Origin: a gamma proteobacterium symbiont of Stewartia floridana
GTDB lineage: Bacteria > Pseudomonadota > Gammaproteobacteria > Chromatiales > Chromatiaceae
NCBI GenBank assembly: GCA_003676145.1
Contig: NAUB01000017.1
Span: 1-64,000, forward strand
Reading direction: 5' to 3'
Length of the DNA stretch: 64,000 nt
This document shows, in pieces, positions 38,260 through 64,000 of the stretch (positions are counted from its first letter, which is position 1; each line of letters opens with the position of its first letter). The notes beneath the pieces were generated by a model, which was given only the letters and a program-made list of their open reading frames with translations, was not told the DNA's origin and searched no databases. Position numbers and translations under genes: made by a program.

Positions 38260-38607
38260 ATGGATGAAATTGAGACAATATTTCGATAATTGAAGACAGG
38301 AGTTTCAATTGAGGGTATTCGAGAGGATGTATTTAATTTAATCCATAAGCTTTTAGAGGAAAGAAGAGATGCTTTAGGGTATTGGAAAAGATTCCATTTC
38401 ATTGATGCAATTTCCGCATTAGCTTGGAACCTTAATTCCAAATCTAATCCACCAATTGGATTACACTTAAGCTTGGTAAGCCTGGGCAATATTTTGATTC
38501 ATAGAAACGAAAGTAATAGGGATTATGCAAGGAAAGATGAACTAATAGAATCTCTTACACATGAACAAGTAGCCAAGGCATTAAGAGACGTCATTGCAAA
38601 TCACTGA
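38260..38607 (+). pseudogene. Hypothetical gene interrupted by an in-frame stop
   Basis: ATG at 38260 with upstream TGGAGAAAG encodes MDEIETIFR, a TAA at 38287-38289, then continues in the same frame for 105 residues (LKTGVSIEGIREDVFNLIHK...ALRDVIANH). Codon and base composition are AT-rich compared with nrdAB. Either a nonsense mutation inactivated the gene or translation restarts at the TTG following the stop. No family recognised. Confidence 0.5.
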
Positions 38608-38648
38608 TAACAAGGAACTGCAGCCGATCCCAACGCCAGCTTCAATTG

Positions 38649-38847
38649 ATGACTAAATTAACCAACGAGGAAGTAAAGAAAGGTGCAAGTCTCAGTATAG
38701 ACAATGCGCAGGAGCTATATTCAGTCGCTGAGGGGCTATAAAGAAAGTTATGCCATAGCTGCAGCGCTGATGGTTTTAAGTGCTGAAGAAAGTATAAAAA
38801 CCTTTGGATTGCTAACTAGAGGGATTTTTTATAAAGAATGGAATTAA
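38649..38847 (+). pseudogene. Frameshifted fragment of an AbiV-like (HEPN) abortive infection protein
   Basis: Frame 1 from ATG 38649 reads MTKLTNEEVKKGASLSIDNA then QELYSVAEGL and stop; after a one-base shift it continues YKESYAIAAALMVLSAEESI then KTFGLLTRGIFYKEWN. Joined, this resembles the N-terminal helices of AbiV proteins (Asn-Ala-x-x-Leu..., then A-L-x-L-S-x-E-E). The rest of the gene is missing: the fragment ends directly at an AAAGGGGTCAGAGCCCTTT repeat. Probably the remains of a phage-defence gene. Confidence 0.5.
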
Positions 38848-38864
38848 AGGGGTCAGAGCCCTTT
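38846..38864. repeat. AAAGGGGTCAGAGCCCTTT short palindromic repeat, copy 1
   Basis: Exact 19-mer with AAAGGG/CCCTTT arms; other copies at 39850-39867 (AGGGGTCAGAGCCCTTTT) and 40861-40879 (exact), plus a partial inverted relative near 40895 (TTCTGACCCTATT). Confidence 0.75.
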
Positions 38865-39013
38865 ATCATCAATGATGCCTCACTACAAAAGCGCTAAGCC
38901 GCCTATCATTGATGAATAACAAAACGATGTATTTGATTAAACTCGGGAATCAGTTGTAACAATTTCCGCAGGTGAATCGATGGAAACCTCCATTTTCATC
39001 GATTCAGACAGAA

Positions 39014-45938: not shown

Positions 45939-48863
45939 TTACTCTTTCAGATCGACCTGATCATCCAATCCAAGACTCCGCTCGTTGCAATCGCCGGCAA
46001 TCACCTCTCTGGCCGCATCTTTGAGACGAACCGCCTCTGCCCAATCATCACCTTCTGGTTCAATGGCGGGTGCTATGATGATCCGCACTGCCCCGTGTTG
46101 AGGGAAATTGGTATCGTCCTGCAGTATGGCGCGGGTTCCTCTGATCGTAACCGGCACAACGGGTATCCCATTCTGGGTCGCGGCAACAAACGCGCCCATG
46201 CGAAACGGTAATAGTCCCGGTTCCGCCCGAAAGGTGCCTTCCGGGTAGAAGACCAGCGATCGTCCGGCAGCAAGCTGGCTGGCAAACTCACCAACAGCCA
46301 TCACACTGCGCCGGCTGTCGGTGCGTTCGACAAACAGCGTGTCGAGTCGCTGCAGGAATAGCCTGACATAAGATTTGTTTGCCAGCTCCTGTTTCGCCAC
46401 ATAGATAAAATCCCGTGGTAGGCCATCGATCAACGCCAGCGTATCGAGATAACTTGAGTGGTTGGCTACCAGTATGACTGGATGGTTTTCTGTCGGAAGG
46501 TTTTCAACCCCCTCCACACTGAGCGGTGTGGCTGTAAACCAACGCAGCACGCGAATCGCCCTACGCACCACTGCCCAACGCCAGGAGAGGCGTGGCAGCA
46601 ACAGGACACTGAGCCAGACCAGCGGTGCCAGGATCATGAAGACGATCCAGGCATAGGATGCAAACAGATAGCTCTTGGCACGCTGATAGAGACTGCGCAA
46701 GCCACGCCCCATGCCCGATAACAAAAGACTCATCACCTGCAGCACCAGCGGGCGTTGGCGACGCCCCAGGTCTCCCCGCTCGTAGAGTTCCCGCATCGCA
46801 CCCCGCCGTAATTTTCCGCTCGAGGTCTTCAGCACTGTGTGCGGTGGCGCCAATAACAGATCATCCGGAGGCATTCCCAACAGGTCGGTGGAGCGCTCCA
46901 GGATCGCCTGGCGAAGTTGTGCCTTGCGTTGTGGGTCTGTCTCCCGTGTTTCTGCCAGAACGATCAGACGTTCACTTCCTGTGGCGGGATCGTTGCTTGG
47001 AAAGAGTGCCACACACCCCTTGCGAATGCCCTCCAACTCGCCCAACTGCTGCTCCAACTCATAGGGATAGATGTTGCGTCCGCCGCGGATGATCATCTCC
47101 TTCAGACGTCCTGTAATATAGATCTCCCCATCCGCCAGGTAGGCCCGGTCGCCGGTATCCACCCAGCCGTCGCGGTAGAGCTTCGCTGTGGCTGCCGGGT
47201 TGTTGAAATAACCACTTGTGGCCGAAGGCCCCTGAAACTCCAAGCGTCCCTCCATGCGGTCCGGTAGAGTCTGATTGTTACCATTGACAACCTGAACTCG
47301 ATAACCGGGGAGCACTCGACCACAACCTACCACCGCCATAGGTTCTGAATCGTTCTCCGCTGCCGGAACCGCTTCCCCATGGAACATGAATCGATCCCTG
47401 TTGATTCGATCGATGACCGGACCGCGTTGGGATGGCGGGAAAGCCAAACCCACCGCCGACTCCGCCAGACCATAGACGGGAGCCAGTGCAGCCCCATCGA
47501 AGCCATAGGCTGCAAAGCGCTTGCTAAACCCCTGCAAGGTCACTGCAGTGACAGGCTCTGCACCATTGAAGGCATAGCGCCAGCTACTCAGATCGAGTCC
47601 GGCGATCTCCTCGTCCGGGATCCTGTTGAGACAGAGCTCATAACCAAAGTTAGGGGATGCGGAGAGGGTACCCCGGTGGTGGTGGATCGCCCACAACCAG
47701 CGGGATGGGCGCGCCAGAAAACGCAGTGGCGACATCACCACCAATGGCACGCCGAAGTAGAGGCTGCCGAGCCAGGCACCGATCAGCCCCATGTCGTGGT
47801 AGAGCGGCAGCCAGCTGATGAACACATCTTCGGGGGTAACCTTAACCGCCTCCCCCATGGCTCGGATGTTGGCCAGAAGATTGGCATGGCTGAGCATCAC
47901 TCCCTTGGGATCTCCCGTACTCCCGGAGGTGTACTGCAGAAAGGCGATGTCATCGGTCTGCCTGACGACGGATGGGGGCGCATCCGAGCCCCTGTCGAGT
48001 TCGCTCCAGTCGACGATATGCCGCAAAGATGGCACTTGCATCTTGAGTAGATGGGCCACCTTGTGGGCCTCTGGTATGGTAATCAGCAGACGCACACCCG
48101 CATTCTCAAGGATGCGACTGTGGCGAGTCAGATGCTCTTCCAGTTGAGAGGCGCGTGTCGGTGGATAGATGGGCACCGGTACCGCGCCTGCCAGCAGAGT
48201 GCCGAAAAAGCTGTAGAAATAGCTCTCTCCGGTCGGCAGCATCAAGGCGACCCGGTCTCCCGGCCTGATCGATCGTTGCCATAAACTGGAGGCCACCCTC
48301 GACGCACCAGACCAGAGAGCCTGATAGCTCAGCTCAACGGGATTATCATCACTGCCGTAATAGAATATATGAACCCGCTGCGGCTGATGATGCAGATGCC
48401 ACGACAATACCTCCATCAGGGTGGATGCAGTGGTGGGAAAAGGCACATCACTATCCGGGAGAGAAGGCCTCGCCTCTGTTGCCTGAGTTACTGGCAAACC
48501 GGCAACTTGGGTCATCAGGATCAATAAGGTGCGGGGCGTTTCCGCAAGCAGCGCCTCATCGGGCATGAGCAGATTGAATCGTTTATTGATCCTGGAAATC
48601 AACTCAGTACGTGCAAGGCTGTCCAATCCCAGGTCCCGCTCCAGACGACACTCCAGATCCAGCCTGGGCCGTTGATCTTCAGCCGCAGGCATTTCATCGA
48701 TCAATCCCTGAATCAGATCCAATAGGGCATCGGCCGTGACTTCGGCTTCCCGTTTGACCATCTTCCCGGTGAGTCGATTATCCATAGGCTTGAAACCTTT
48801 TGATCCTGCCTCATAAACGTTGCGATAACGCTGAGCCAACCGGGTTGGCCAACTCATCGCCAT
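45939..48863 (-). CDS. ACP - acyl-CoA/ACP synthetase - 1-acyl-glycerol-3-phosphate acyltransferase fusion
   Basis: 974 residues with three parts. An acyl-carrier-protein domain (~45-120) has the phosphopantetheine site DLGLDSLART (Ser82). An adenylate-forming acyl ligase (~155-690) shows FLQYTSGSTGDPKGVMLSH, YGLAESAV, the TGDRAYLADGEIYITGRLKEMI signature and the C-terminal Lys region TSSGKLRR. A C-terminal PlsC acyltransferase (~760-960) has NHSSYLD (H-x4-D) and FYPEGTFR. The layout suggests fatty-acid activation, loading on its own ACP and transfer to a lysophospholipid, comparable to Aas but with an added ACP domain. TM segments (~700-745) anchor it to the membrane. Confidence 0.88.
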   Translation of the reverse strand: MAMSWPTRLAQRYRNVYEAGSKGFKPMDNRLTGKMVKREAEVTADALLDLIQGLIDEMPAAEDQRPRLDLECRLERDLGLDSLARTELISRINKRFNLLMPDEALLAETPRTLLILMTQVAGLPVTQATEARPSLPDSDVPFPTTASTLMEVLSWHLHHQPQRVHIFYYGSDDNPVELSYQALWSGASRVASSLWQRSIRPGDRVALMLPTGESYFYSFFGTLLAGAVPVPIYPPTRASQLEEHLTRHSRILENAGVRLLITIPEAHKVAHLLKMQVPSLRHIVDWSELDRGSDAPPSVVRQTDDIAFLQYTSGSTGDPKGVMLSHANLLANIRAMGEAVKVTPEDVFISWLPLYHDMGLIGAWLGSLYFGVPLVVMSPLRFLARPSRWLWAIHHHRGTLSASPNFGYELCLNRIPDEEIAGLDLSSWRYAFNGAEPVTAVTLQGFSKRFAAYGFDGAALAPVYGLAESAVGLAFPPSQRGPVIDRINRDRFMFHGEAVPAAENDSEPMAVVGCGRVLPGYRVQVVNGNNQTLPDRMEGRLEFQGPSATSGYFNNPAATAKLYRDGWVDTGDRAYLADGEIYITGRLKEMIIRGGRNIYPYELEQQLGELEGIRKGCVALFPSNDPATGSERLIVLAETRETDPQRKAQLRQAILERSTDLLGMPPDDLLLAPPHTVLKTSSGKLRRGAMRELYERGDLGRRQRPLVLQVMSLLLSGMGRGLRSLYQRAKSYLFASYAWIVFMILAPLVWLSVLLLPRLSWRWAVVRRAIRVLRWFTATPLSVEGVENLPTENHPVILVANHSSYLDTLALIDGLPRDFIYVAKQELANKSYVRLFLQRLDTLFVERTDSRRSVMAVGEFASQLAAGRSLVFYPEGTFRAEPGLLPFRMGAFVAATQNGIPVVPVTIRGTRAILQDDTNFPQHGAVRIIIAPAIEPEGDDWAEAVRLKDAAREVIAGDCNERSLGLDDQVDLKE

Positions 48864-49259
48864 AAAGTTCTGAACCAGCCAGCGAAGTGGCTACTCACTA
48901 CCTCCTGACAATCAAAGCTCCTTGATAAAGACAAGTATAGGAAGTCACTGCAATCCCGTTAACTCAAATTTAGCCTGGGAGATTCATTAAAGCCCCTCTC
49001 CCATAAGTGGAGAGGGGAGCTACTCTCTCATTTGTAGTACCAGTGCTGAAGAGTTTGGCTTTCGGCAATTGGCCGCAAATGGACGCCAAGCACCGCAAAC
49101 GATCGCGAATGACTGATTAAAAGCCTCTCTCCCTCAAGGGGAGAGGGGAACTACTCCCTCATTTTTAATACTCGTGCTGATAACTCTGGATTTCTACAAT
49201 TGGCCGCGAATGGACGCCAAGCACCGCAAATGCTCGCGAAATAGTGCTTAATAGCCCCT
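48864..49259. repeat. Tandem ~131-bp units with hairpin and GCAAAT-type repeat
   Basis: Hairpins CCCCTCTCCC...GGAGAGGGG begin near 48993, 49124 and 49255, 130-132 bases apart. The DNA between them repeats too (GAGCTACT-CTCTCATTT..., then AATTGGCCGCAAATGGACGCCAAGCACCGCAAA and TCGCGAA). The third hairpin is split by the casposon-like element. Units contain the dispersed GCCGCAAAT repeat seen elsewhere in the window. Confidence 0.8.
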
Positions 49260-49274
49260 CTCCCACAAGGGGAG
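49260..49274. repeat. Left 15-bp target site duplication
   Basis: CTCCCACAAGGGGAG, identical in the same orientation to 59429-59443. The loop ACAAG is not palindromic, so this is a true direct repeat. The bases just outside differ between the two copies (T and C; G and A), fixing the length at 15. Confidence 0.92.
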
Positions 49275-49306
49275 GGGGTATAGATATATCCGATCAAAAA
49301 TATCAC
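49275..49306 (+). repeat. Left terminal inverted repeat
   Basis: Begins GGGGTATAGATATATCC (17 bp, perfect match to the complement of the right end), then GATCAAAAATATCAC against CTCCAAAATTATCAC; 28 of 32 positions match. Confidence 0.93.
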
Positions 49307-49524
49307 AAACATTAGAGATCATCTTGTTATTTCATAACTGAAATCTATTATTTTTATCTATCGGTGTTGATTGGCTAGGAATTTCTCTAAGATGTTGTTA
49401 TGGGTCTATTGTACAGCTCAACAGCAACAGATGATTGCCATAACTTTTAGAGAATTCGTTTAAGTTTAGAGATAAAAAAACAGGATAGATTATACACAGC
49501 AAAAAAAATACTCATAGTAACTTC

Positions 49525-51159
49525 TTATATTGCCAATACGGGGTTAACTAGTACGGCAATAGATTTAGAGCATATATACAATAACTGAAACACTAATTCT
49601 ATTAACTCGGTTGAGTGCAGAAAAAAAGAAGAGATTACAATTAATGACAACGTTGGACCTACAATTGGCATCGATGAAATGTAAAAGACGCTAAAAAGTC
49701 TATTGCGTATATTGTTTTCGTCATTATTTAACCATCTTTTTCTAATAGACAATGGTACAACAAAAATAAATGCGCTAGATGCTAGTATGAAATGTATTAA
49801 AGTCCAGAGAAGGGTGGACAAGACCATTGCATGAATCCATAATAAGTTTGGGTCATATGGATCAGCTTCCATCATGACATAGAGCCCCTGTAAGTCAAAT
49901 AGATATTCGCTTGTCGCACGAAAATAAATAGCATCCATGTAGGCTATGATAACAGTTAACAGGCTTGTTATTGTTAATAGTAAAAGGATTGCAACAAGGC
50001 CATCGCCAAATGCCCAAATTACATCCCATATTCCACTATGCTTTTTAATTTTTATAGCATAAAGAAGCCCTCTAGTGAATCCAAGTGATATCCAATCTAC
50101 AAACGCATTTACTAAGGGTAATATTATTATAAGCACTATTAAAGCAATACGCTCAGTATTTCCTGATCTATCTCCAATCCATCCTATAGTTAATACATAA
50201 ATTGCAACTATCGATGCCGAAAAAAGTAATGTAAATATGATTCTCTTATTTTCAGTGTCATTTAGCAAAGCAATTCCTGTCATAGTGATAGTAAATGCAA
50301 CTGCATACCAAATGCTGAGCGTAATCGAAAATAAAATATTACCAGCATGCTCAATTACCAATAAAAGAACCATCACTGCCGCAGTCGCTATAATTGATTG
50401 AGAAACCCCTGTTATTCTGATGTTGATTAACGCTATAACAAATAAAAAAAGCAAGAAAACTAATACAATTCCACCCATTCCTGCACTTGGAATTACATCA
50501 ATGCTAACACTGAAAAGAATAGAGAGGCCTAAAATTACAATTGCCATTAGGAATATACCTTTCAGGATTCCTATAGCACCCTCATTAAATCTCTTAGTAA
50601 TGAATTTTATCCACTTGAAAACCAGTTTATGGCCAATAGATAGTATACTTAGTACTGATAGTGAAATCATGAAAGTAATCTTATCGCTCTCACTAGCACT
50701 TAGAATGGATCTATTACCAAGATTACCTTCTCCTCCCATAAGCCATCCAAAAGTAAAAAAGGCTGCTGGATAAATGAATGCCAATGCGACAGAGAAATCA
50801 TATGAATTCGCAGTAAACGGATTGCAACCGAAAAATTTCGCTAATCTTGTTTCATTTTTCGATGATGCATTTATTGTTTCGAGATCACCAATAAAATTGG
50901 TTGAGAGTTTATTAAAAAACCAATTTAGACCAATACGATATATAGATTCCCATTTCGGAGTTTCTATACTCTCTCGCATTTTTGTTCTTTCATTTTCTAA
51001 CTGCGTTCGAGTCTTGCGAGATGGATTGGGGTTGCTTTCTTCTAAAAACTCAATTTTATAATAGTAAATAAATCTAATTTTTATTATCCAAGCTAAAAGT
51101 ACAAATATGGCAACAGTTATCCCATATTTTGATATTAATACATTAATGACAGCATCCAT
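49525..51159 (-). CDS. Polytopic membrane protein, casposon cargo
   Basis: 544 residues, AT-rich gene. An N-terminal TM helix (YGITVAIFVLLAWIIKI) is followed by a charged cytoplasmic-looking stretch (~35-110), then about ten further hydrophobic helices (such as ILFSVSIDVIPSAGMGGIVLVFLLFLFVI and IIATAAVMVLLLVIEHAGNILF). No transporter or enzyme motif is recognised. It starts 53 bases after the Cas1 stop on the same strand, so it may be co-transcribed with cas1. Compact size and location inside a mobile element suggest cargo such as a membrane-acting defence or immunity protein, but this is inference. Confidence 0.7.
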   Translation of the reverse strand: MDAVINVLISKYGITVAIFVLLAWIIKIRFIYYYKIEFLEESNPNPSRKTRTQLENERTKMRESIETPKWESIYRIGLNWFFNKLSTNFIGDLETINASSKNETRLAKFFGCNPFTANSYDFSVALAFIYPAAFFTFGWLMGGEGNLGNRSILSASESDKITFMISLSVLSILSIGHKLVFKWIKFITKRFNEGAIGILKGIFLMAIVILGLSILFSVSIDVIPSAGMGGIVLVFLLFLFVIALINIRITGVSQSIIATAAVMVLLLVIEHAGNILFSITLSIWYAVAFTITMTGIALLNDTENKRIIFTLLFSASIVAIYVLTIGWIGDRSGNTERIALIVLIIILPLVNAFVDWISLGFTRGLLYAIKIKKHSGIWDVIWAFGDGLVAILLLLTITSLLTVIIAYMDAIYFRATSEYLFDLQGLYVMMEADPYDPNLLWIHAMVLSTLLWTLIHFILASSAFIFVVPLSIRKRWLNNDENNIRNRLFSVFYISSMPIVGPTLSLIVISSFFLHSTELIELVFQLLYICSKSIAVLVNPVLAI

Positions 51160-51212
51160 AGTAGGGCCACTTCCAATTCGCTTCTTTTATTATTTTGTAA
51201 AGAAATATATAT

Positions 51213-52373
51213 TTATATCTTATTTACTAAAGTATCATTCTCTATACATGACAAATGTGCCTTTGTTAGCTGAACTACTCGACGAGCAAGATTAGGATTT
51301 AACCGGCACACCCCGTCATGCTGAATAGGAAAATCATTGCGCGTGAACGTTACCGTATTGATTATATTCAGAATGCCTCTATCTACAATCGGCCGCATAG
51401 GCTCCATAGTATCGAGTGCAAATGCCGGGTATTTACCCCGAGTTTCTTTATCATCATGCATTATACCTATAGTCGGATCATACCCATCCGCAATCAGTTT
51501 CATTTGTGTACGCGCTGTTAACACACCATAGGCATAATTCAACATAGCATTGATTGGATGTGTAGCCCGATAGGCGCGTGGACAGCCACTTCGGACAGCA
51601 GCACGTGAAGTAAACTTTCGCCAATCATCAGGTATTGGATAATGTTTGGTGGCTTTCCATTTTATAGGTATTGCAGACCAGGTCCTGAAGTATTCTGAAG
51701 CGATAGCGCCTTCTACTCCAAGAAGGCCTTGAAAATCTCTAGGTGGTTGCTCTACGACAGATTGTGTCTGGGTGGAAATATTTTGGTAAGCTTTCTCCCA
51801 GATTCGTGACCTGGGAACATACTCTTCCATGGTTGTTAGAGTGTTTCTGGCCTTTTTTATCAGCAACTTAAGTCCAAACTCTGCTCTCAATTCTGGATTC
51901 TTTCGCGTTTCATGCTGCCATAGGATGTTTTCAATAGAAGCGGCCTGACCACCCGAACTGAGAACAGAATTAAATTGGCCATCCCAGCGAAGACGGATTA
52001 GCTGAACACTCTGTCTGGCTAACCAATCCATGGCATCCAGGGTGATTTCTCCTGATCCATCGATTATGACAATCGCAGGCGGGATATCTAGTCCACCATT
52101 GAAGAAGCGCCAATGCCGTTGTTCAGCAGGAAAATGCGTGTTTCCGTCTCGTATGGATAGGCTACCTTTCTCAACCCGTAGAGAAAGACCATGCCCTGTC
52201 AAGATCAAAGGATTTTTTTCTCGATCTCGTCTACGACGATATCCTGTATCTAATGTCTTATTTAGCCAGTAACGTGAGCGAGCTTCATACGTCTCACAAG
52301 GTGAATCTAGTTCGCAATCTGCTCTGTTGTCGCTTTCCAGATTTGAAATAGGTTTTCTCTGACTTTTAGCCAT
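51213..52373 (-). CDS. cas1: Stand-alone Cas1 (casposase), integrase of the element
   Basis: 386 residues. A ~50-residue basic N-terminal extension precedes the Cas1 beta domain (NPLILTGHGLSLRVEKGSLSIRDG). The helical catalytic domain keeps all active-site residues: E221 in LLGVEGAIASEYF, H306 in GYDPTIGIMHDD, D321/E324 in FALDTMEPMRPIVD; the family motif HPINAMLNYAYGVL is at ~272-285. No Cas2, other cas gene or CRISPR array is nearby. In casposons this protein cuts and joins the TIR ends into target DNA, making 14-15-bp duplications. Its start (ribosome site GGGAG) overlaps the upstream winged-helix gene by 67 bases, implying coupled expression. Confidence 0.95.
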   Translation of the reverse strand: MAKSQRKPISNLESDNRADCELDSPCETYEARSRYWLNKTLDTGYRRRRDREKNPLILTGHGLSLRVEKGSLSIRDGNTHFPAEQRHWRFFNGGLDIPPAIVIIDGSGEITLDAMDWLARQSVQLIRLRWDGQFNSVLSSGGQAASIENILWQHETRKNPELRAEFGLKLLIKKARNTLTTMEEYVPRSRIWEKAYQNISTQTQSVVEQPPRDFQGLLGVEGAIASEYFRTWSAIPIKWKATKHYPIPDDWRKFTSRAAVRSGCPRAYRATHPINAMLNYAYGVLTARTQMKLIADGYDPTIGIMHDDKETRGKYPAFALDTMEPMRPIVDRGILNIINTVTFTRNDFPIQHDGVCRLNPNLARRVVQLTKAHLSCIENDTLVNKI

Positions 52374-53329
52374 TCGCTACGCACTCCCTGAGAAACAGTA
52401 TAGGTGCCATCATCCGTTTGGGATATATCACTTAATTCTACATTATTTAAGAAGCTATGCATTGCAGAAATACTCGTTGCAATCGGTAAGTTAGGAAGCA
52501 TTCGATTTTCCATAATCATTACCTTAGTTATAAAAGGCCCTATAAAATCCTTCATTAAAAAGGCAACTTGTCCAACTGGGTCTATGGCTTTTTGTGCTTC
52601 GGCGTCCTGCAATTCCAAAAGATGTTGAATTATTTGCCTGATAAGGCCCAAAGATTGATGCGCATACTCAAATTCTGACTTCGATACTGATTTTGTGAAT
52701 TCAATTAACTCATCGCTCCTAAACAATCTCGGTATCTCTAGTTCGCTCCAAACCACACTAACAATTTTGTAGAGTTCTTTACTAGCTGGTTCCTGGTTTG
52801 GATTATCGAATCTATTCAGTATCTCGACAATAAGATCCTGATACGCGATATCATCACGCTCATCGTCATCATATAGCCATTCAAGTGTTTCACGCATGAA
52901 GCTCAAGTACGATTCAAGAATTGACTTATCAGATGTTGACTTTTTACGTAGCCGTCGAGACCAACTTAAACCCAAGCCCAAAAAGTTATCTCTATATTGC
53001 GAAGCGGTCTGTTGCCTACGATTTTGGATGTGTTTGAGATGCTTGAGCCAAGCTTTTTGAGCTTTATTCGAAGAAATTGTGAAACCTGAAAGCCAGAGGC
53101 CCAAAAGTGCCTCATCAGCACGTCCATATCTATCGAGTAGCCAGTGCGTTGCAATGGCCTGTTCTAAAACGTCTTCATCCCACCCATAGATCGAGCCTTT
53201 ACCTCGGCCCCGACCCTGTCGTCTGAGCGGTGGTAGCAACCCCCGCTCACGCCAGTCCGTTAGCACTCTTGACTCTCGATTGATACCTGCATCCTTGAGT
53301 TGGGTGATTAATTGAGCAGGTGTGATCAT
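52307..53329 (-). CDS. MerR-like winged-helix protein of the casposon
   Basis: 340 residues. The N-terminal ~70 residues look like a MerR-type winged helix (TPAQLITQLKDAGINRESRVLTDWRERGLLPPLRRQGRGRGKGSIYGW), with the wing rich in Arg/Gly. The rest is helical with no known motif. It precedes and overlaps cas1 by 67 bases and is divergent from the HTH-HNH-PolB unit with 95 bases between, so it is well placed to regulate both units or to bind the element ends with Cas1. I do not recognise the C-terminal region. Confidence 0.75.
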   Translation of the reverse strand: MITPAQLITQLKDAGINRESRVLTDWRERGLLPPLRRQGRGRGKGSIYGWDEDVLEQAIATHWLLDRYGRADEALLGLWLSGFTISSNKAQKAWLKHLKHIQNRRQQTASQYRDNFLGLGLSWSRRLRKKSTSDKSILESYLSFMRETLEWLYDDDERDDIAYQDLIVEILNRFDNPNQEPASKELYKIVSVVWSELEIPRLFRSDELIEFTKSVSKSEFEYAHQSLGLIRQIIQHLLELQDAEAQKAIDPVGQVAFLMKDFIGPFITKVMIMENRMLPNLPIATSISAMHSFLNNVELSDISQTDDGTYTVSQGVRSEWLKVRENLFQIWKATTEQIAN

Positions 53330-53424
53330 TTTTACAGCTTACATTGAAACGTCGGATTTCGGTTTATACGTACGCGCAATATAGCACTACCGAACGCACT
53401 TATGCGCGCATACCGAGACCCGAA
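53330..53424. promoter_or_regulatory. Divergent promoter/operator of the casposon core
   Basis: 95 bases between the two divergent units. Contains inverted TTCGGT (53358-53363) and ACCGAA (53389-53394), and related motifs TATACGTACGCGCA (~53365) and the perfect 12-bp palindrome TATGCGCGCATA (53401-53412). Likely autoregulatory operator, possibly bound by one of the two flanking HTH proteins. Confidence 0.6.
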
Positions 53425-54000
53425 ATGCCCAGAAAACGTAACTACAGAGACGAATACCAACGCCGCATTACTAGTGGTCTAGCCCGAGGGCTATCCCGGT
53501 CCCAAGCAAGAGGCCACCCCAAACCCGGTGAGCCTTCGATCCGTCCCAAGAAATCTGAGCCTGATTCCCGGCTGGATGATGCCCTACTAAGCATGAATCG
53601 TGGTCTATCCCTGACCTCGGCAGCAAGGAGTCATCACGTCTCGGCAAATCGACTATCGCGACACCTCTCCGAAAAAGGCCTGGCAGAGCTAAAGGGTCGT
53701 CGCTGGATTCCTACAGATTCTCGACCTCGACAGATACAAGTCATGACGAAAGGCGAGATGAAAGTACTGACCATCGTTGGGTTCCAGCAAGCCAGTCTGA
53801 TTGGCGAACATCACTATGCTGCTGGTCGCTTTGTTCGCACCAATGACATCGAATGGCTCAGCCCCTTCGAAGGCAGGTTTGTGCGCGACATCAATGGTCG
53901 TAAATACCCCTTAGAAACAGATCCCAATGCCATTCACCGAATAGCATCGATGGATGATCCACCATTTCATGAAATTTATGAAATCACCTCAAACGATTAG
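53425..54000 (+). CDS. HTH protein of the casposon
   Basis: 191 residues from MPRKRNYRDEYQRRI. An upstream in-frame ATG at 53344 would put the start across the operator palindromes and is less likely. A basic N-terminal region (ITSGLARGLSRSQARGHPKPGE) is followed by an HTH of the Psq/transposase type (GLSLTSAARSHHVSANRLSRHLSEKG). A C-terminal ~90-residue domain (WLSPFEGRFVRDINGRKYPLETDPNAIHRIA) is not recognised. First gene of the HTH-HNH-PolB unit, 11 bases before the HNH gene. Confidence 0.72.
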   Translation: MPRKRNYRDEYQRRITSGLARGLSRSQARGHPKPGEPSIRPKKSEPDSRLDDALLSMNRGLSLTSAARSHHVSANRLSRHLSEKGLAELKGRRWIPTDSRPRQIQVMTKGEMKVLTIVGFQQASLIGEHHYAAGRFVRTNDIEWLSPFEGRFVRDINGRKYPLETDPNAIHRIASMDDPPFHEIYEITSND

Positions 54001-54011
54001 GAGAAAATAGC

Positions 54012-54368
54012 ATGAAAAATAGATACTTAGATGCTGAAGATCGAAAAGAGCAACGATATAGGGCTCTCGGAACACGCAAACCGGTTTGCGTGGTCTGTGG
54101 AGAAGACGATTCAACCTGTCTGGAAGCCCACCATATAGCAGGTCGAAAACACCACGAAGATATTGCAATCGTGTGCCGCAACTGTCACCGAAAATTGTCA
54201 GACCAACAGCTCGATCACAACCCACTTGATGAGCAGTATCCACAAAATCAGTTGGTAAAAAAAGGCCATTTTCTACTCGGTTTAGGTGATCTATTTGAGC
54301 TGCTCAGCAAACGCCTGCGGGAGTTTGGTCATTTCCTGATCAAGAATGCTGAGACTAAGGAGTTGTGA
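54012..54368 (+). CDS. HNH endonuclease of the casposon
   Basis: 118 residues. HNH/zinc motif CVVCGEDDSTCLEAHHIAGRKHH then IAIVCRNCHRKLSD: two CxxC pairs hold zinc and the AHHI plus NCH residues form the beta-beta-alpha metal site. Compact HNH nucleases are part of the known casposon core, where their role is unproven (end resolution, target nicking or host interference). It lies between the HTH and polymerase genes; the polymerase ATG follows its stop by one base. Confidence 0.9.
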   Translation: MKNRYLDAEDRKEQRYRALGTRKPVCVVCGEDDSTCLEAHHIAGRKHHEDIAIVCRNCHRKLSDQQLDHNPLDEQYPQNQLVKKGHFLLGLGDLFELLSKRLREFGHFLIKNAETKEL

Positions 54369-54369
54369 T

Positions 54370-57105
54370 ATGGCTACTTTAGAAACAAAAATCGCGATTC
54401 GTGCCTACAGTGAACGCCCTGATAAGCCCTCACTCGGCTCAAGACCATTCGCAAAAGAGCAAGAATCATCACCATGGACCCTAATATTCGACTGTGAAAC
54501 AACCATCGACGCTGCACAACAGCTACGAGTAGGATTTTTTCAGGTTCGGAATGGTAAAGCACTAAAAATTGAAGGCGTTTTTTTCGATCCCGTAACCATT
54601 TCAGCGTCTGAAGAGAAGCTGACTCGGGACTATGCGGCTTCCAACAGCCTAACTGTTCTGACTGTCGCTGAGTTCCGCTCCAAAATCTTTCTGAAATACG
54701 GATATATACGGCGCGGGATCGTGGTTGGCTTTAACCTGCCCTTTGACCTCTCACGAATTGCACTCAGCCATAGTCCAGCACGACGATCAATGCGAGAGGG
54801 ATTCAGTTTTACATTAACCCAATATAAGCAGGACCCTCGAGTACGGGTCAAACATTTAAGTCCACGTGCAGCGATTATTGATTTTGCGACACCTGGCGAC
54901 CAGGATACGCCCCGAGGTATGCGTAATCGTGAATTAAAAGTACCCCCATTTCGTGGGCACTTCGTCGATGTAAAAACCCTGGCGTCAGCACTCACCAGCC
55001 GTCGATTCAATCTTCGAAGCCTGGCGCAGTACCTACAGACACCAACGCAGAAGCTCGACACCGATGAGCATGGTGAAATCACAATGGATTATCTGGATTA
55101 TGCACGAGCCGATGTACAGGTTACCTGGGAATGCTTTGATGAGTTGTCTCAACGATATGCCGAGCATGGGCTTTCGAAGGGCATGGATCGAATTTTGAGT
55201 GAGGCCAGTATTGGTAAAGCCTATTTGCAAGAGATGGGGATACGGCCTTTTCTTAGTTGTGAGCCTTCGTTCCCACGTGAGCGGTTTGGTGAAATCATGA
55301 GCGCCTATTATGGCGGTCGCGCTGAGGTACGGAATCGTCGTGAGATACACGAGACTTGTTATTGTGACTTCAAATCCATGTATCCAACCGTCAACACATT
55401 GATGGGATTATGGCGATTTGTTGTAGCGGATGGTTTGATGGTCCACGATTCAACAACAACGACTCGTAAGCTTCTAGAGTCAGTAACGATCGAGGATCTT
55501 CAAAACCCGAGCATCTGGCGAAATCTGACAACACTGGTCTGTGTAAAACCAATGGAGGACCTTTTTCCGGTTAGGGCAAAATACAACGATAAAACTTATA
55601 CCATTGGTTTGAATTTTCTAACATCGAATGACCCCCTCAGGTTTACCCTGGCAGACTGTATTGTGTCGAAGCTCTTAACGGGAAAGTGTCCAGAAATTGT
55701 ACAGGCAACAACCTACGAACCAGGCCCAGTCCAGAGTGATCTCAACAACATAGACATACTCGGAAACGACCAATACCGAATCGATCCGGCCACTGATGAT
55801 CTTTTCAACCGATTGATAGATCTGCGAGACGAGGCGAAAGAAAAGGGTGACCCTATCGAGAAAACTCTCAAGATTCTAGCTAATTCAACAAGTTACGGGA
55901 TTTTTATCGAGGTCAACCGTGATAATGCACCCAAATCAGAACCAATCACCGTATTTGGCCCAACGGGCGAAAAACATGAGTTAACAACCAAAGCCATTGA
56001 AGAGCCGGGCCGCTATTTCCACCCGCTACTTGGTGTTCTTATCACTGGGGCAGCTCGATTAATGCTCGGTATTGCAGAGAAACTAGTGCTCGATGAGGGA
56101 TTAGACTGGGCATTTTGCGATACAGACTCCCTGGCAATGATTCGCCCAGATGGGATGACGAGAAGAGACTTTCACCAGAAAGCAGATGCGGTCATAGATT
56201 GGTTTGGACCTCTCAATCCCTACAGAAAACCTGGTTCGATCCTCAAGATTGAGGATGTCAATTACGCAATTGATTCAAGGAATCGTGAACCGCTCTATTG
56301 CTTTGCTATTTCTGCAAAGCGGTATGCTTTATTTAATCTTGATGAGAATGGCAATCCTATTTTAAGGAAAGCCTCAGCTCATGGACTGGGGCATTTAATT
56401 GATCCATATAATGGTGACGAAGCACCAGCAAATATACGTCCACCTCAATTACCACTAACTCAGATTGGCGTGAAACGCTGGCAGCATGATTTTTGGACTA
56501 AGATTATACAAGCCGCGCTGACTGGTAAACCTGATCAGGTAATTCTGGATTGGCATCCAGGCCTAATGAGTCCAGCGGCATCACGCTATACTGCTTCTAG
56601 TCCTCAGATGTTGTCCTGGTTGGATAGCTGGAATGAAGGTAAAGAGTACAAAGCGCAGATCCGACCATTCGGATTCTTGCTATCATTTATGGCTAGAACG
56701 GGTCTATACGAGCCAGCACCATGCCTCGATCAATCAGCTGTTGATACACCTAAGCGTGGCAGGCCGAAGAAAAAGGCAAATTGTAAACCAATTGCGCCCT
56801 ATGCTAGCGACCCAGCAAATGCCGTGCCGAGTGTATTTGACAGAGTCACAGGAGAAAAGATAGAACTCAAGCAGCTGAAGACTTATGCAGAGGCTCTTGC
56901 TCAGTATCATCTCAGTTGTGAGGATAAGTTTTTGAATGGACAATTTCTTGATCGTGGACGGACTGAGCGAAGGCACGTATTAGCAACTGGAATTGAATTG
57001 AGTGGGAAGGAGGCAAATCGTGTCGGTGAGAGTGGGCAGGCAGATCAAATTGAATCGGCGGTTGTTCGTTTTTATACAGACTCTTGTAGGTATAGAAACC
57101 CTTGA
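54370..57105 (+). CDS. polB: Family B DNA polymerase of the casposon
   Basis: 911 residues from MATLETK, chosen for the AGGAG ribosome site. Exonuclease motifs: Exo I FDCET (D41, E43), Exo II GFNLPFD (N122, D126), Exo III YARAD (Y244, D248). Polymerase motifs: A DFKSMYP (D333), B KILANSTSYG (K501, N505, Y509), C CDTDS (D584, D586), and a KRYALF motif after C. All catalytic residues are intact. A C-terminal KRGRPKKK AT-hook-like stretch (~800) may bind AT-rich DNA. In casposons the polymerase is thought to copy the excised element or repair the gaps left by integration. Spacing between motifs A and B does not obviously show the insertions of protein-primed polymerases. Confidence 0.95.
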   Translation: MATLETKIAIRAYSERPDKPSLGSRPFAKEQESSPWTLIFDCETTIDAAQQLRVGFFQVRNGKALKIEGVFFDPVTISASEEKLTRDYAASNSLTVLTVAEFRSKIFLKYGYIRRGIVVGFNLPFDLSRIALSHSPARRSMREGFSFTLTQYKQDPRVRVKHLSPRAAIIDFATPGDQDTPRGMRNRELKVPPFRGHFVDVKTLASALTSRRFNLRSLAQYLQTPTQKLDTDEHGEITMDYLDYARADVQVTWECFDELSQRYAEHGLSKGMDRILSEASIGKAYLQEMGIRPFLSCEPSFPRERFGEIMSAYYGGRAEVRNRREIHETCYCDFKSMYPTVNTLMGLWRFVVADGLMVHDSTTTTRKLLESVTIEDLQNPSIWRNLTTLVCVKPMEDLFPVRAKYNDKTYTIGLNFLTSNDPLRFTLADCIVSKLLTGKCPEIVQATTYEPGPVQSDLNNIDILGNDQYRIDPATDDLFNRLIDLRDEAKEKGDPIEKTLKILANSTSYGIFIEVNRDNAPKSEPITVFGPTGEKHELTTKAIEEPGRYFHPLLGVLITGAARLMLGIAEKLVLDEGLDWAFCDTDSLAMIRPDGMTRRDFHQKADAVIDWFGPLNPYRKPGSILKIEDVNYAIDSRNREPLYCFAISAKRYALFNLDENGNPILRKASAHGLGHLIDPYNGDEAPANIRPPQLPLTQIGVKRWQHDFWTKIIQAALTGKPDQVILDWHPGLMSPAASRYTASSPQMLSWLDSWNEGKEYKAQIRPFGFLLSFMARTGLYEPAPCLDQSAVDTPKRGRPKKKANCKPIAPYASDPANAVPSVFDRVTGEKIELKQLKTYAEALAQYHLSCEDKFLNGQFLDRGRTERRHVLATGIELSGKEANRVGESGQADQIESAVVRFYTDSCRYRNP

Positions 57106-57212
57106 ATAGCTAGCCATTTTATTTACAGACACACTAAAATGATATATGTTTTATGTCCAGCGATTTGTATGTCAGCTGCAGCGAATCGATCACCCTATTT
57201 AAAATGATTTTT

Positions 57213-58016
57213 TTAAGTCATCAGTTTAATTAGATCTACTTCAAATTCATTTTGAATATACTTCACTGTAACAGGTTGATTGTCTAAAGATGCCTTCACT
57301 TTCTGTGGAGTGTACAAACCAGATTTTCGTTTAAATTTAGCTTCTTTTCGATCTAACGTTTTGATCCACTTTACAAGAGCAACATATTCTGATTTTTCAT
57401 CAGACTCTGAATTTATAGCCATACCACCACAAACTAGTGGCAAGTCTAGTAAATAGTTGTTATTTACTATTACTTGTTGAATAGGTTTAGCTTCTTGCGT
57501 GATTTTTCCAATACCAAGAAAACCATGCTGCGGTAAATAAGCAGCAATAACATCTCCGATTTCAAAACTCAACATAGCGTCTCTAAATCTTGGTGCTTGA
57601 CCTGCAGAAATAAAGCCGTATTTCCTATAGTCGTCCCAATTTCTGTGCTCTCCCTCACCGATGTTGTAATAATACAAGCCATTTTTATAATCAAAGCCTG
57701 ATAACTTTTTATATAAAGTATCATGGGGTCTAAAATTGTTTGAGTAGTGTCCCGAAGAAACGTTGGTTAACTGCTTACCCAATTTCCATAGCAAGGTTTT
57801 TTCTACTAAGAGTGCATCATGCTCAGATAGCCCACGCGCTATGACTCTAATGATCGGCTCTAGACCAGCTTTTTTTATCGCCTTTATCCTTTTTGATTTT
57901 TCGCTATCACTATCTTCAAATAAATGTGCATCCTTACGAGAACCTTTACCTTTTCCATAGTAAAACTCTTCAAAATTACGGGGATCGATGTAGACGTATA
58001 CGTAATATTCATTCAT
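57213..58016 (-). CDS. GIY-YIG nuclease fused to an EVE/PUA-like domain, probable defence cargo
   Basis: About 267 residues from MNEYYVYVYIDP; a GTG start 14 codons upstream is less convincing. The N-terminal GIY-YIG nuclease (~2-95) has YVYVYID, FYYGKGKGSRKDAH and the conserved Glu in LLVEKTLLWKLG. The C-terminal part (~115-230) has NWDDYRKYGFISAGQ and GDVIAAYLPQHGFLGIGKI, the pattern of EVE-like domains that read modified bases. A nuclease joined to a modified-base reader suggests a modification-dependent restriction enzyme. Very AT-rich, opposite in strand to polB. Nuclease domain fairly sure, EVE-like call tentative. Confidence 0.68.
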   Translation of the reverse strand: MNEYYVYVYIDPRNFEEFYYGKGKGSRKDAHLFEDSDSEKSKRIKAIKKAGLEPIIRVIARGLSEHDALLVEKTLLWKLGKQLTNVSSGHYSNNFRPHDTLYKKLSGFDYKNGLYYYNIGEGEHRNWDDYRKYGFISAGQAPRFRDAMLSFEIGDVIAAYLPQHGFLGIGKITQEAKPIQQVIVNNNYLLDLPLVCGGMAINSESDEKSEYVALVKWIKTLDRKEAKFKRKSGLYTPQKVKASLDNQPVTVKYIQNEFEVDLIKLMT

Positions 58017-58208
58017 ACCTAATTTATTAGTAGCTTTATTGGTGAAAAAACTTGGCACATTATCGATTTTATCCCATATAGTTACCTCGATGTTTTGTTG
58101 TCACTACCATTGTTCTTTGTGTAAAAAAAAAGAATGTGTCTTAGTGAAAATTAGAAGCCCATGTAAATGAAAAGAGTCAATTTAGTCTATTTTTCCAAAA
58201 GAAAAAAA

Positions 58209-58541
58209 CTAAAACTTCAATAGAGCAACCTTATCCCCACCAACTGTAATAGTGCATGTTCTTTTCTCATCATTGCCACCACATTCTGCGGCTACAGGCT
58301 TACCTTCCAGTTCGCTGGTCATGGTCAGTCTTTTTGACCAATAGTGTGCTTTCCCTGCCATTAGTTTATGCCCATTGACGTAGATAATAATCAGTCGGCC
58401 TGTGGTGCCAGTTCTGTACTCTGCATTGAATTGATAAATTATTTCACTATCAGGGCTTGTCCAGGTATCTGCTGTCGAGTAAAGGGCTGTGCAACCTGAA
58501 GATAGGAAAAGAGCTAGAAGTAATATCAATGGGCGAAGCAT
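58209..58541 (-). CDS. Small predicted lipoprotein, casposon cargo
   Basis: 110 residues: signal LRPLILLLALFLSSGC with lipobox-like LSSGC, then a small, probably beta-rich domain with two cysteines (AECGG, KRTC) that may pair. No known family. Inside the element between two GIY-YIG genes; an envelope protein here may be an exclusion or immunity factor, which is speculation. Confidence 0.6.
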   Translation of the reverse strand: MLRPLILLLALFLSSGCTALYSTADTWTSPDSEIIYQFNAEYRTGTTGRLIIIYVNGHKLMAGKAHYWSKRLTMTSELEGKPVAAECGGNDEKRTCTITVGGDKVALLKF

Positions 58542-58693
58542 TATTTATAATTCCTGTATTGAAGGTTGGGGTCGAAATATATGATTGTTAATCAAAGGTG
58601 CCTCAGGATTATGTTTAAAAAAATCGCATGAAGACCTTTGCGTTTACGAGTACTTATTTAGACTACCAAGAAAGATATCGACATTGAATAACA

Positions 58694-59146
58694 TTAGGTA
58701 TCTAGTGGGTTGAGAATTGGTTTTTTCCCAAATATCTCACCTCTCCGGGCACGACTTTCGACATGGTAAGCCTCAGAACTGCTTTCTACTATGACATATT
58801 GGTAATCTAGGTAATCGTGAATAAATGTCTTTGTTAAGTGATCAAGTCTCAACTCCCCAGATGCAAACTTATGCAAATCACCATGTTTAAGTGTTGGTAT
58901 AACTAGGCGATTAGCTACATAAACACAGAATTGGTCGCCGCTGAGACGGCCAGAGGCGTGGCTATTTAGCCTGGTGATCAACCCGAATTTGTGCTTTCCA
59001 CTCGCAATAGCGTGCTCAATTTGACGCCCAGACATTCCGCAGTAAAAAAGGTCATCGCCATTCCAGATAGCATACACACCAGCGGCCACAAGCGGTATTT
59101 TCGAATTTGGCCAATCGGCAAATCGAAATCTTTCTGAAAACTCCAT
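58694..59146 (-). CDS. GIY-YIG domain protein, casposon cargo
   Basis: 150 residues, a stand-alone GIY-YIG fold: AGVYAIWNGDDLFYCGMSG (the G-x-Y and Y-C-G halves), GLITRLNSHASG with Arg and His, and a Glu in YHVESRARR as expected for the catalytic acid. May be an active homing-type or restriction nuclease. It is the last gene before the right end of the element, pointing inward. Confidence 0.72.
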   Translation of the reverse strand: MEFSERFRFADWPNSKIPLVAAGVYAIWNGDDLFYCGMSGRQIEHAIASGKHKFGLITRLNSHASGRLSGDQFCVYVANRLVIPTLKHGDLHKFASGELRLDHLTKTFIHDYLDYQYVIVESSSEAYHVESRARRGEIFGKKPILNPLDT

Positions 59147-59396
59147 TTGAAGCCTTTCTGCACATAACTGTTTTTATATTATGGTAACCTATCTCACTTT
59201 ACAGGTGTAGATACGCCTCCAGGTTACACGAAAATATTGTAATTACAATGACTTACAATTATTCTGTTTGGTAATGCACACTCGAAAGTCGTGAGTCTAT
59301 AGACTACATATCAAAATGCTCGCTATCCATCATGTCGATGGAGCCACAAGAATCAGGTTATCTATACAAGCACCTCTTGGCTGTCAGTCTAGATGA
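59147..59396. other. Right subterminal region of the casposon
   Basis: About 250 gene-free bases inside the right end, with a perfect 14-bp palindrome ATTGTAATTACAAT (59236-59249). A similar gene-free stretch of ~220 bases (49307-49524) lies inside the left end. They may hold transposase-binding sites. Confidence 0.5.
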
Positions 59397-59428
59397 GTGA
59401 TAATTTTGGAGGGATATATCTATACCCC
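59397..59428 (-). repeat. Right terminal inverted repeat
   Basis: Ends GGATATATCTATACCCC (59412-59428), the exact complement of the left tip; 28 of 32 positions match over the whole repeat. Confidence 0.93.
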
Positions 59429-59443
59429 CTCCCACAAGGGGAG
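59429..59443. repeat. Right 15-bp target site duplication
   Basis: CTCCCACAAGGGGAG, followed by AGGGGAGCTATTTTCTC, which continues the host hairpin repeat interrupted at 49274. Confidence 0.92.
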
Positions 59444-59653
59444 AGGGGAGCTATTTTCTCTTTCTGTTTGGTATGCTGATACCTGGTGCTTTTTTCAGGT
59501 ATAACAAGAGGCACTGGAGAAACCAACTGAAACTAACCTGTATCTATCCTATGGATCAATGTTGATCGGTCAGAAATAATAAACCCGTTATCATAAATAT
59601 GGTTAGCTGCCATATGATGAGTTTCTGCCGCTGATGCGGCGCATCGGACAAGT

Positions 59654-60877
59654 ATGACCACAATTGAAATCAAATCTTCACAAGCGTCTGCTCGTTTACG
59701 ACGCCATGCCTTGGCTGCTCAAGGTTTGCTGCAGGTTAAGCCCTATGGGAGTGGATTGTCAGGTGCTCGCAAAGCGATCAACCACATCGGCTATGTACAG
59801 ATTGACACCATATCGGTGGTGGAAAGAGCGCACCATCATGTTTTTCACTCCAGAGTACCTGGCTTCAAGCCATCCATGACCAATCAAATGTTGATCGATG
59901 GCGATATTTTTGAGTATTGGGCACACGCGGCGGCTTTTTTACCCATCTCCGATTTCCGTTTCTCTCTACCCTATAAACACGCGATTAAAAACGGTCAAAC
60001 CCATTGGTACAAAGAGCCTGACAAGAAGCTCATGAGCGAACTGTTGGGCCGTATACGTTCAGATGGCCCGCTACGCTCCCGGGATGTAAAAACGAATACC
60101 ACAAAGCGCGCAGGCTGGTGGGATTGGAAGCCTGCCAAAAAAGCACTCGAACAACTCTATATGGAAGGCGATCTGATGGTAAGCAGTCGGGAAGGTTTCC
60201 AGAAAACCTATGACCTGACCGAGCGAGTCGTGCCCTCTCACATCAATACACAAATGCCCAGCATGGAAGAGTTTGCATCACACATTCTGGACAGACAGTT
60301 GCAATGTCATGGATTGATCTCCCTCAAGGGACTGACCTACCACCAGCGTCGAAATAAAGAGTTACAAAAAACAGTCAATGAGCTGGTAAAGGAGAGGTTG
60401 GCGCAGCGCACTTTGGAACAGATCAAAGTAGCCAACGGTGAAGTTTTTTTATTGAAAAATGGCGTACTTGAAGAACGGCTTCCCCGACTCAACAACCGCC
60501 TGTTGATTCTTTCGCCGTTTGACAACAGTGTCATCCAGCGTGCGCGGCTGAAAACGTTGTTTCAGTACGACTATCAGTTGGAGTGCTATCTACCCGCAGC
60601 CAAACGGATCTATGGCTACTTTTGCTTACCGCTACTCTACCGAGATCGATTTATTGGACGAATGGATTGTAAAGCTCATAGAAAAACCGGCCAGTTGGAG
60701 ATCAAATCACTCCATTTCGATCAGCACAATTTTGAAGAGGATTCAGTCATTGCAGAATTTGTAAAGGCGATTAAAAAGTTCTGCCATTTCCAACAGTGTA
60801 CCTCTGTGGTCTTGACAAAATCTCATCCTAAACATTTAACCGGGAATTTACGCCGAGCGTTAAAAGCAGTTGGTTGA
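59654..60877 (+). CDS. ycaQ: YcaQ-type DNA glycosylase (HTH_42/AlkX family)
   Basis: 407 residues. Winged-helix glycosylase family protein: QASARLRRHALAAQGLL at the N-terminus, YVQIDTISVVERAHHHVFHSRVPGF with the conserved Gln-x-Asp catalytic region, EYWAHAAAFLP, and ILSPFDNSVIQRARLKTLFQYDYQLECYLPAAKRIYGYFCLPLL. Characterised members unhook interstrand crosslinks and remove alkylated bases. First gene right of the element and convergent with dnaE2, so DNA-repair genes border the insertion. Confidence 0.9.
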   Translation: MTTIEIKSSQASARLRRHALAAQGLLQVKPYGSGLSGARKAINHIGYVQIDTISVVERAHHHVFHSRVPGFKPSMTNQMLIDGDIFEYWAHAAAFLPISDFRFSLPYKHAIKNGQTHWYKEPDKKLMSELLGRIRSDGPLRSRDVKTNTTKRAGWWDWKPAKKALEQLYMEGDLMVSSREGFQKTYDLTERVVPSHINTQMPSMEEFASHILDRQLQCHGLISLKGLTYHQRRNKELQKTVNELVKERLAQRTLEQIKVANGEVFLLKNGVLEERLPRLNNRLLILSPFDNSVIQRARLKTLFQYDYQLECYLPAAKRIYGYFCLPLLYRDRFIGRMDCKAHRKTGQLEIKSLHFDQHNFEEDSVIAEFVKAIKKFCHFQQCTSVVLTKSHPKHLTGNLRRALKAVG

Positions 60878-63900: not shown

Positions 63901-64000
63901 AGCTGGAGTTGCTGCCGCTTGGCCTCCACGTGGGCACGTACCACACCGGCCAGTGTGCACTCGTCGGTGATGGCCAGAGCGCGATAGTTGAGCAGCGCCG
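60996..64000 (-). CDS. dnaE2: Error-prone DNA polymerase III alpha (DnaE2/ImuC), 5' end outside window
   Basis: At least 1001 residues visible; the frame is open to base 64000 (upstream codons read [19 protein letters not shown], part of the PHP domain), so only a short N-terminal piece is missing. Family signatures: [22 protein letters not shown] (catalytic aspartates), [53 protein letters not shown], and a C-terminal OB fold ([27 protein letters not shown]). It performs translesion synthesis, normally with ImuA and ImuB under SOS control; those genes would lie right of the window. Confidence 0.93.

Follow-up and report, generated by a model that had tools for sequence, protein, structure and literature searches.

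An apparently intact bacterial casposon set in a dispersed palindrome of a Stewartia floridana symbiont

We analysed a 64,000-nucleotide stretch of DNA (hereafter the window) from a gammaproteobacterial symbiont of Stewartia floridana (Chromatiaceae; assembly GCA_003676145.1, contig NAUB01000017.1, positions 1 to 64,000). Positions 49275-59428 (10,154 bp) hold the genes of a stand-alone Cas1 with its catalytic residues, a family B DNA polymerase (PolB), an HNH endonuclease and a helix-turn-helix (HTH) protein, enclosed by terminal inverted repeats (TIRs) that are in turn bordered by a target site duplication (TSD), as is characteristic of the casposon superfamily. This stretch is very probably a complete, apparently intact bacterial casposon of the family 3 kind, set in a dispersed host palindrome. 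We base the identification on the TIRs, the TSD, the core genes, unoccupied sites in related genomes, the absence of any other Cas1 from the genome and the Cas1 phylogeny, which together bear out the initial annotation of a casposon with exact ends. The element is a sound new example of a known casposon type; its palindromic target, on which that annotation did not remark, is the feature of most interest.

Ends, insertion site and genes of the element

The inverted ends of the element are identical at 28 of 32 terminal nucleotides and share a perfect 17-nt tip (GGGGTATAGATATATCC) at 49275-49291 (+) and 59412-59428 (-); together with the 15-bp duplication and the Cas1, PolB, HNH and HTH genes, these features stand as first annotated. 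In a search of the 4.55-Mb genome the tip matched exactly at the element's two ends only. The seven other tip-like matches all carried three mismatches (a reversed control gave three matches at three mismatches or fewer), and neither further copies of the element nor solo ends were found in that genome, making it single-copy. Its GC content lies below that of the host, with ten 1-kb intervals at 34-50% versus 50-60% in most host intervals. A second GC dip (0.39) occurs in the window at 38001-39000.

The insertion target is CCCCTCTCCCACAAGGGGAGAGGGG, a palindrome of the repetitive extragenic palindromic (REP) type, and the element lies at its exact centre. It occupies the third palindrome in a row, just to the right of two tandem host units that carry one each (Table 1). 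Related palindromes are spread through the genome: CCCTCTCCCNNAAGGGGAGAGGG was found with up to one mismatch at 22 distinct places, four of them around the element, and a search at up to three mismatches returned 53 strand-hits (many being one place on both strands) and none in a reversed control. We searched for the right flank in 22 genomes of the genus, including the element's own. Seven had any match, several of these to the repeat only, and the orthologous gene region was present in three (the element's own, G010 and G016), with a 137-bp piece in G001. G010, whose contig ends short of the left-hand gene, has the 15-mer once, within an uninterrupted palindrome, next to a flank 94.8% identical over 877 bp. 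Both flanks are kept in G016 (left, 85.7% over 1,219 bp; right, 85.8% over 730 bp), and between them lies an uninterrupted, slightly different palindrome. The search for empty sites advised in the initial annotation thus uncovered two congeners with an unoccupied target, and a site free of the element with one copy of the core that is duplicated here indicates insertion with duplication. The element itself was absent from all 21 congeners searched. Elsewhere, a 15-mer identical to that of the window adjoins the one visible tip of locus L074 (genome G496).

The window Cas1 matched Pfam PF01867 (7.3e-36), and its catalytic residues are strongly conserved among aligned casposon Cas1 rows of at least 330 aa (E221, H306 and D321 in 45/45, E324 in 44/45). 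Its best match among solved structures was the M. mazei casposase (6opm, 1.1e-22), with a CRISPR Cas4-Cas1 fusion behind (1.1e-15). The window protein probably catalyses integration. The Pfam match runs to residue 368 of 386, and the protein has no C-terminal HTH fusion of the kind that marks family 2. PolB contains FDCETT, DFKSMYPT, ANSTSYG and CDTDS, which we read as the exonuclease motif and polymerase motifs A, B and C; a partial PF03175 match, checked with regard to the protein-primed PolB of casposon family 1, fell just below the cut-off, and no solved polymerase was matched among PDB sequences. The HNH assignment, with a weak Pfam match (0.0025) under the curated cut-off, is backed by matches to PHROG HNH families (8e-6), and relatives conserve the protein. 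No significant family match was found for the HTH protein (best Pfam, 0.048), which is nonetheless conserved in relatives. The MerR-like assignment is weak in Pfam (0.098 for the window protein, 0.0022 for its relative in L101), and the structure model is confident over its first 100 residues. Downstream of the insertion site lie an AlkZ-like glycosylase gene (59654-60877, by Pfam) and a DnaE-type polymerase gene (60996-63944, by eye).

Table 1 Features of the casposon and of the adjoining host DNA (window coordinates).
Feature	Coordinates	Strand	Remark
Two tandem host units, 131 bp, 82% alike	48989..49250		each with REP-type palindrome CCCTCTCCC..GGAGAGGG
TSD, left copy CTCCCACAAGGGGAG	49260..49274		host palindrome centre
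Left TIR, tip GGGGTATAGATATATCC	49275..49306	+	
Cargo protein, 544 aa	49525..51159	-	membrane-like by eye; no family match in four libraries
Casposase Cas1, 386 aa	51213..52373	-	catalytic E221, H306, D321/E324
MerR-like HTH protein, 340 aa	52307..53329	-	directly upstream of cas1, same strand
Conserved core HTH-type protein, 218 aa	53344..54000	+	TTG start
HNH endonuclease, 118 aa	54012..54368	+	
Family B DNA polymerase, 919 aa	54346..57105	+	
Cargo GIY-YIG protein, LEM-3-like	57213..58058	-	matches candidate anti-phage families PDC-S11, PD-T4-3
Small cargo protein	58209..58541	-	lipoprotein-like signal by eye
Cargo protein, 150 aa	58694..59146	-	GVY...YCG, GIY-YIG-like by eye; no Pfam match
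Right TIR	59397..59428	-	
TSD, right copy CTCCCACAAGGGGAG	59429..59443		palindrome runs on as AGGGG to 59448

Relatives, classification and cargo

An initial Cas1 search of 56 genomes of the genus, family and class (cut-off E 1e-3) matched 15, none besides the element's own better than 2.6e-13, and weak matches (E 8e-10 to 4e-5) came from four of the 21 congeners searched. At the level of the class, 21 of 369 genomes matched at E 1e-10; the one that stood out besides the element's own (G246, 2e-38) holds a Cas1 without the other core genes. Five of the six matches among 398 genomes of the phylum (E 1e-16) were casposon-type relatives. When an alignment of five Cas1 sequences was used to query 84,980 species genomes, 58 named loci emerged, mostly in Hyphomonadaceae, Robiginitomaculum, Maricaulaceae, Rhodobacterales and Sphingomonadales, with some in Nitrosomonas and Chloroflexi. 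The nearest relatives of the window Cas1, at 55-56% identity, are on fragments of metagenome-assembled genomes (MAGs): L077 (Proteobacteria) and L094 (labelled Gammaproteobacteria). Viral contigs held no relative and phages gave one weak match only. Fifty plasmid records matched, and the 20 matches listed are mostly annotated CRISPR Cas1. The sole casposon-like one among those listed is on the Bradyrhizobium sp. 2S1 plasmid pBsp2S1b (L034, 12001-12352), which is typed conjugative: an unannotated, broken-looking Cas1 piece with 45% identity over 31% of the query and insertion sequence (IS) elements nearby. Several loci can share a genome, as in Marinicauda salina, which has two different complete casposons, each in a palindrome (L082 and L083), and in one Chloroflexi MAG with three casposon-type Cas1 loci (L114, L121 and L126), two of them with HTH, HNH and PolB.

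Our Cas1 tree comprised 69 rows, including one archaeal casposase (M. mazei, on a long branch) and 19 CRISPR references. The window Cas1 groups with L077 and L094 (support 100/99) within a 21-row clade (100/100) of proteobacterial casposons from Henriciella (four elements), Hyphomonas and Rhodobacteraceae, among others. In all, 48 bacterial rows unite with the M. mazei casposase (98/87), separate from 18 of the 19 CRISPR references. The phylogeny suggested as a check in the initial annotation therefore places the window protein in the casposase clade and outside the CRISPR subtypes, as judged with a single archaeal reference. L132 and L020 are long-branched and stray as a pair; L132, which looks like a CRISPR Cas1, was rejected as a casposon and is still counted among the 63 entries.

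In the clade of the window element the standard arrangement is HTH-HNH-PolB divergent from cas1, and HTH, HNH and PolB were all present in 42 of the 63 entries, many of the others being cut by contig ends. The initial annotation had also raised the prospect of a separate bacterial family. We reject this on the position of Cas1 inside the 21-row clade and on the common gene arrangement, and the MerR-like partner recurs in 13 further loci. To judge from its accessible text, the original 2014 description already included bacterial casposons and their core genes as family 3 (Streptomyces, Henriciella, Nitrosomonas and Acetothermum; PMC4046053). Going by its sequence, the window element most likely belongs to this family: its host is bacterial, its Cas1 and PolB are accompanied by HNH and a conserved HTH protein (matched to relatives rather than to the 2014 proteins), and the assignment rests on four Henriciella members of the clade and on gene content, the 2014 members being absent from the tree.

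A slot between the two operons holds either a MerR-like protein (14 loci, the window included) or a protein of about 226 aa (26 loci, L105 9194-9853 among them), and both in none. Profile comparison found no homology between the two, and four 226-aa members had no Pfam match. The structure model of the MerR-like protein has a mean confidence of 72.7, and that of the 226-aa protein 90.0. The two may be alternative targeting or regulatory modules.

The cargo genes are accessory, and their products often match anti-phage families. In PADLOC the GIY-YIG protein of the window element matched PDC-S11 (2.8e-33) and PD-T4-3 (1.1e-14). Among 23 other elements we examined 120 cargo open reading frames, 118 of them scanned together and 30 singly; in the single scans 12 elements (L082, L083, L084-L087, L097, L101, L103, L104, L108 and L112) had at least one anti-phage or restriction-family match at 1e-20 or better, and the other 11 had none at that level among the proteins scanned singly. 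The families matched were type I, II and IIG restriction-modification, Drt3, LmuB, the Argonaute-associated Aga, PD-Lambda-4 and PDC candidates, each such match being a name rather than a demonstrated function. The window element might alternatively be a casposon that no longer moves and persists as a carrier of a defence gene, a reading consistent with its single copy and its absence from congeners, four of which have weak Cas1 matches of their own. The perfect TSD, the 17-bp tips, the open frames and the intact catalytic residues argue against it, and we consider such a loss unlikely.

Palindromic targets among relatives

From a search for ends in 60 entries we selected, by eye, 24 elements whose TIRs and TSD were clear. 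The rebuilt target was a GC-rich hairpin with a stem score of at least 7 matched pairs in 18 of the 24, and each of these hairpins was equalled or beaten by no more than 7 of 1000 random sites of its own locus. In 14 of the 18 the axis of symmetry lay no more than 0.5 bp from the TSD centre, and in the remaining four no more than 2 bp. Since a palindromic target makes the TIR look longer and might thereby influence which elements were chosen, a second test was anchored on the 8-mer TATACCCC alone, independently of the duplication. It covered 68 tips, some of them chance matches, in 43 of the 63 entries. Complementarity extended over all five outer pairs at 29 of the tips, compared with 0.68% of 8,855 random positions and, in a second control, 0.84% of 6,440 positions after CCCC; by locus, 19 of 43 had five of five pairs and 27 at least four. 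The outer 5-bp arms took twelve different forms, CCGGC and CTCCC being the commonest: the targets share dyad symmetry, not arm sequence. A tip-guided search for further ends in 24 entries found single tips only and no new two-ended element. At L079 (3820-3880), one palindrome is bordered on each side by a casposon end, the two being back to back, apparently the remnant of a second element at the same target.

Another branch of the tree than the window clade inserts just before recA (RecA was recognised by eye at L101, L112, L118 and L107). L101 (4495-4508 and 19267-19280) and L112 (near 367 and 15552), both with two ends seen, and L118 (near 6123, one end seen) are inserted at GAACAAAAAAAGAAC, and L107 (near 13796, one end seen) at a different sequence. 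The Cas1s of L101 and L112 pair in the tree at 100/99, and that of L118 is 65-66% identical to both over its larger piece. The target contains GAAC-N7-GAAC, which we take to resemble the alphaproteobacterial SOS box, and in L101 and L112 the box on the side facing recA is complete after the duplication.

We tentatively suggest, as a possibility still far from secure, that bacterial casposases of the window clade recognise a target by its dyad symmetry or by a hairpin (cruciform) fold rather than by its sequence, each insertion duplicating a short palindrome. Repeated use of one site (as at L079) would then give palindromic repeats parted by foreign DNA, a present-day parallel to the step through which CRISPR would have acquired palindromic repeats. 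Insertion itself most likely proceeds as follows. PolB and host enzymes would make or free a copy of the element, whose CCCC-3' tips the Cas1 casposase would bind in the form of an assembly with two-fold symmetry, comparable to the M. mazei tetramer. Two staggered strand transfers, about 14-17 bp apart, would follow across a dyad-symmetric, hairpin-forming target (a REP element or a terminator), and host repair would fill in the gaps to leave the duplication. The HTH, HNH and MerR-like (or 226-aa) proteins probably aid end processing or target choice. As far as the available text of each report goes, the A. boonei casposase efficiently incorporates the TIR-end pentamer TCCCC (PMC6614799), and the M. 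mazei casposase is a pseudo-two-fold tetramer that uses a symmetrised TSD no less well than the natural sequence (PMC6977970). An assembly of this type, pseudo-two-fold and able to accept a symmetrised site, is compatible with a target that is naturally dyad-symmetric.

The preference for palindromes might instead be indirect, if elements settle in harmless intergenic spots rich in REPs and terminators and the casposase reads something else. The mixture of targets could be understood in this way, some being terminator-like with T-runs (L085, L087, L091 and L097) and the others REP-like repeats without them, and so could the insertions before recA. The archaeal enzymes studied so far, those of M. 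mazei and A. boonei, also depend on sequence that lies upstream of the TSD (for M. mazei, the available text of PMC6977970). A cut aligned with the dyad is not expected from a mere intergenic preference, and it is the coincidence of symmetry axis and duplication centre in most hairpin targets that leads us to regard this explanation as improbable.

Several observations weigh against the preferred reading of the element and its targets. The upstream requirement of the archaeal enzymes implies that symmetry alone may not suffice. L101, L103, L112 and L129 have no palindromic target (L129 ends at a contig edge), and in L133 the palindrome is weaker, 70 of 1000 control sites being as good. The weak palindrome of L080 fails by stem (454/1000), yet its folding energy is rare (5/400). 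In the tip-anchored test, 24 of the 43 loci fell short of five pairs, some of their tips being chance matches. With the tip fixed at GGGG, TSDs measured 14-17 bp in 20 of the 24 elements (the anchor failed in L097, L101, L112 and L129, where raw exact repeats were 14-16 bp), and for many elements this length carries an uncertainty of 1-4 bp, since the G-runs of the tips merge with C/G-rich targets. The same ambiguity keeps us from claiming that a longer loop goes with a longer TSD (5 bp + loop + 5 bp). At the L071 site, congeners with conserved synteny lack the element (G834 and G823), and their spacer, too diverged, has no matching palindrome. The models of the MerR-like and 226-aa proteins match no solved structure at E 0.001 or better, and mobility of the element has not been observed.

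Comparison with CRISPR adaptation and known casposons

That the locus is a remnant of a CRISPR adaptation module, its CRISPR-type Cas1 caught between chance repeats, has a negligible probability in our judgement: the generic NCBIfam Cas1 model and several CRISPR-subtype models do match the window protein (the generic one alone passing its cut-off), but we reject this origin on the lack of any second Cas1 in the 4.55-Mb genome and on the placement of the protein with casposon Cas1s and the M. mazei casposase, away from 18 of 19 CRISPR references, and TIRs, TSD, PolB and empty sites are all present. The locus gave neither a cas2 match, among nine element proteins scanned, nor a CRISPR-type Cas1. 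CRISPR spacer acquisition by Cas1-Cas2 likewise employs a homologous integrase that joins two ends across a duplicated, often palindromic repeat. The window element differs in having no cas2 match among its nine proteins scanned and no array among the 20 of 34 direct-repeat families listed for 48500-60500, a genome-wide array search not having been made.

CRISPR repeats are often palindromic. Whether they descend from casposon TIRs or from a duplicated target site was left open in earlier work, as far as its available text goes (PMC6452270). The target-site route gains weight from a bacterial clade whose members often insert precisely midway in natural palindromes, and these offer simple test substrates; palindromic targets on one side and often palindromic repeats on the other make the proposed origin of CRISPR repeats testable.

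Palindrome-centred targeting is the new element here, a claim of novelty limited to the literature that could be searched. In the accessible casposon literature, supplements not covered, we came across no description of insertions centred on the dyad of a REP or terminator, or placed before recA (one group mentions an unpublished casposon survey of its own), and the available text of a 2014 commentary merely hints at palindromic targets. REP-targeting insertion sequences have transposases unrelated to the casposase and are far smaller. Like the window element, they are reported to insert in dispersed extragenic palindromes (PMC1525189; ISPpu9, PMC8450116).

Archaeal casposons (A. boonei, M. 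mazei and Thaumarchaeota) likewise combine a Cas1 integrase with PolB and have TSDs of 14-15 bp in the accounts available; the window Cas1 differs in having no C-terminal HTH. Their reported targets include the 3' ends of tRNA and aEF-2 genes with an upstream leader, ten of the 2014 set being intergenic. The cargo of the window clade often matches anti-phage or restriction families. With another branch inserting before recA, casposon target choice is wider than the tRNA and aEF-2 examples suggest. The closest counterparts are the family 3 casposons HenMar-C1 of Henriciella, NitAL212-C1, StrAlb-C1 and AceAut-C1 (Krupovic 2014, PMC4046053), which in the available text are likewise bacterial, with PolB, HNH, a conserved HTH protein, TIRs and a TSD of about 15 bp; the Cas1 of HenMar-C1, like that of the window element, has no extra domains. 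Beyond what that text describes for family 3, the window element adds a MerR-like partner and a palindromic target centred on its dyad.

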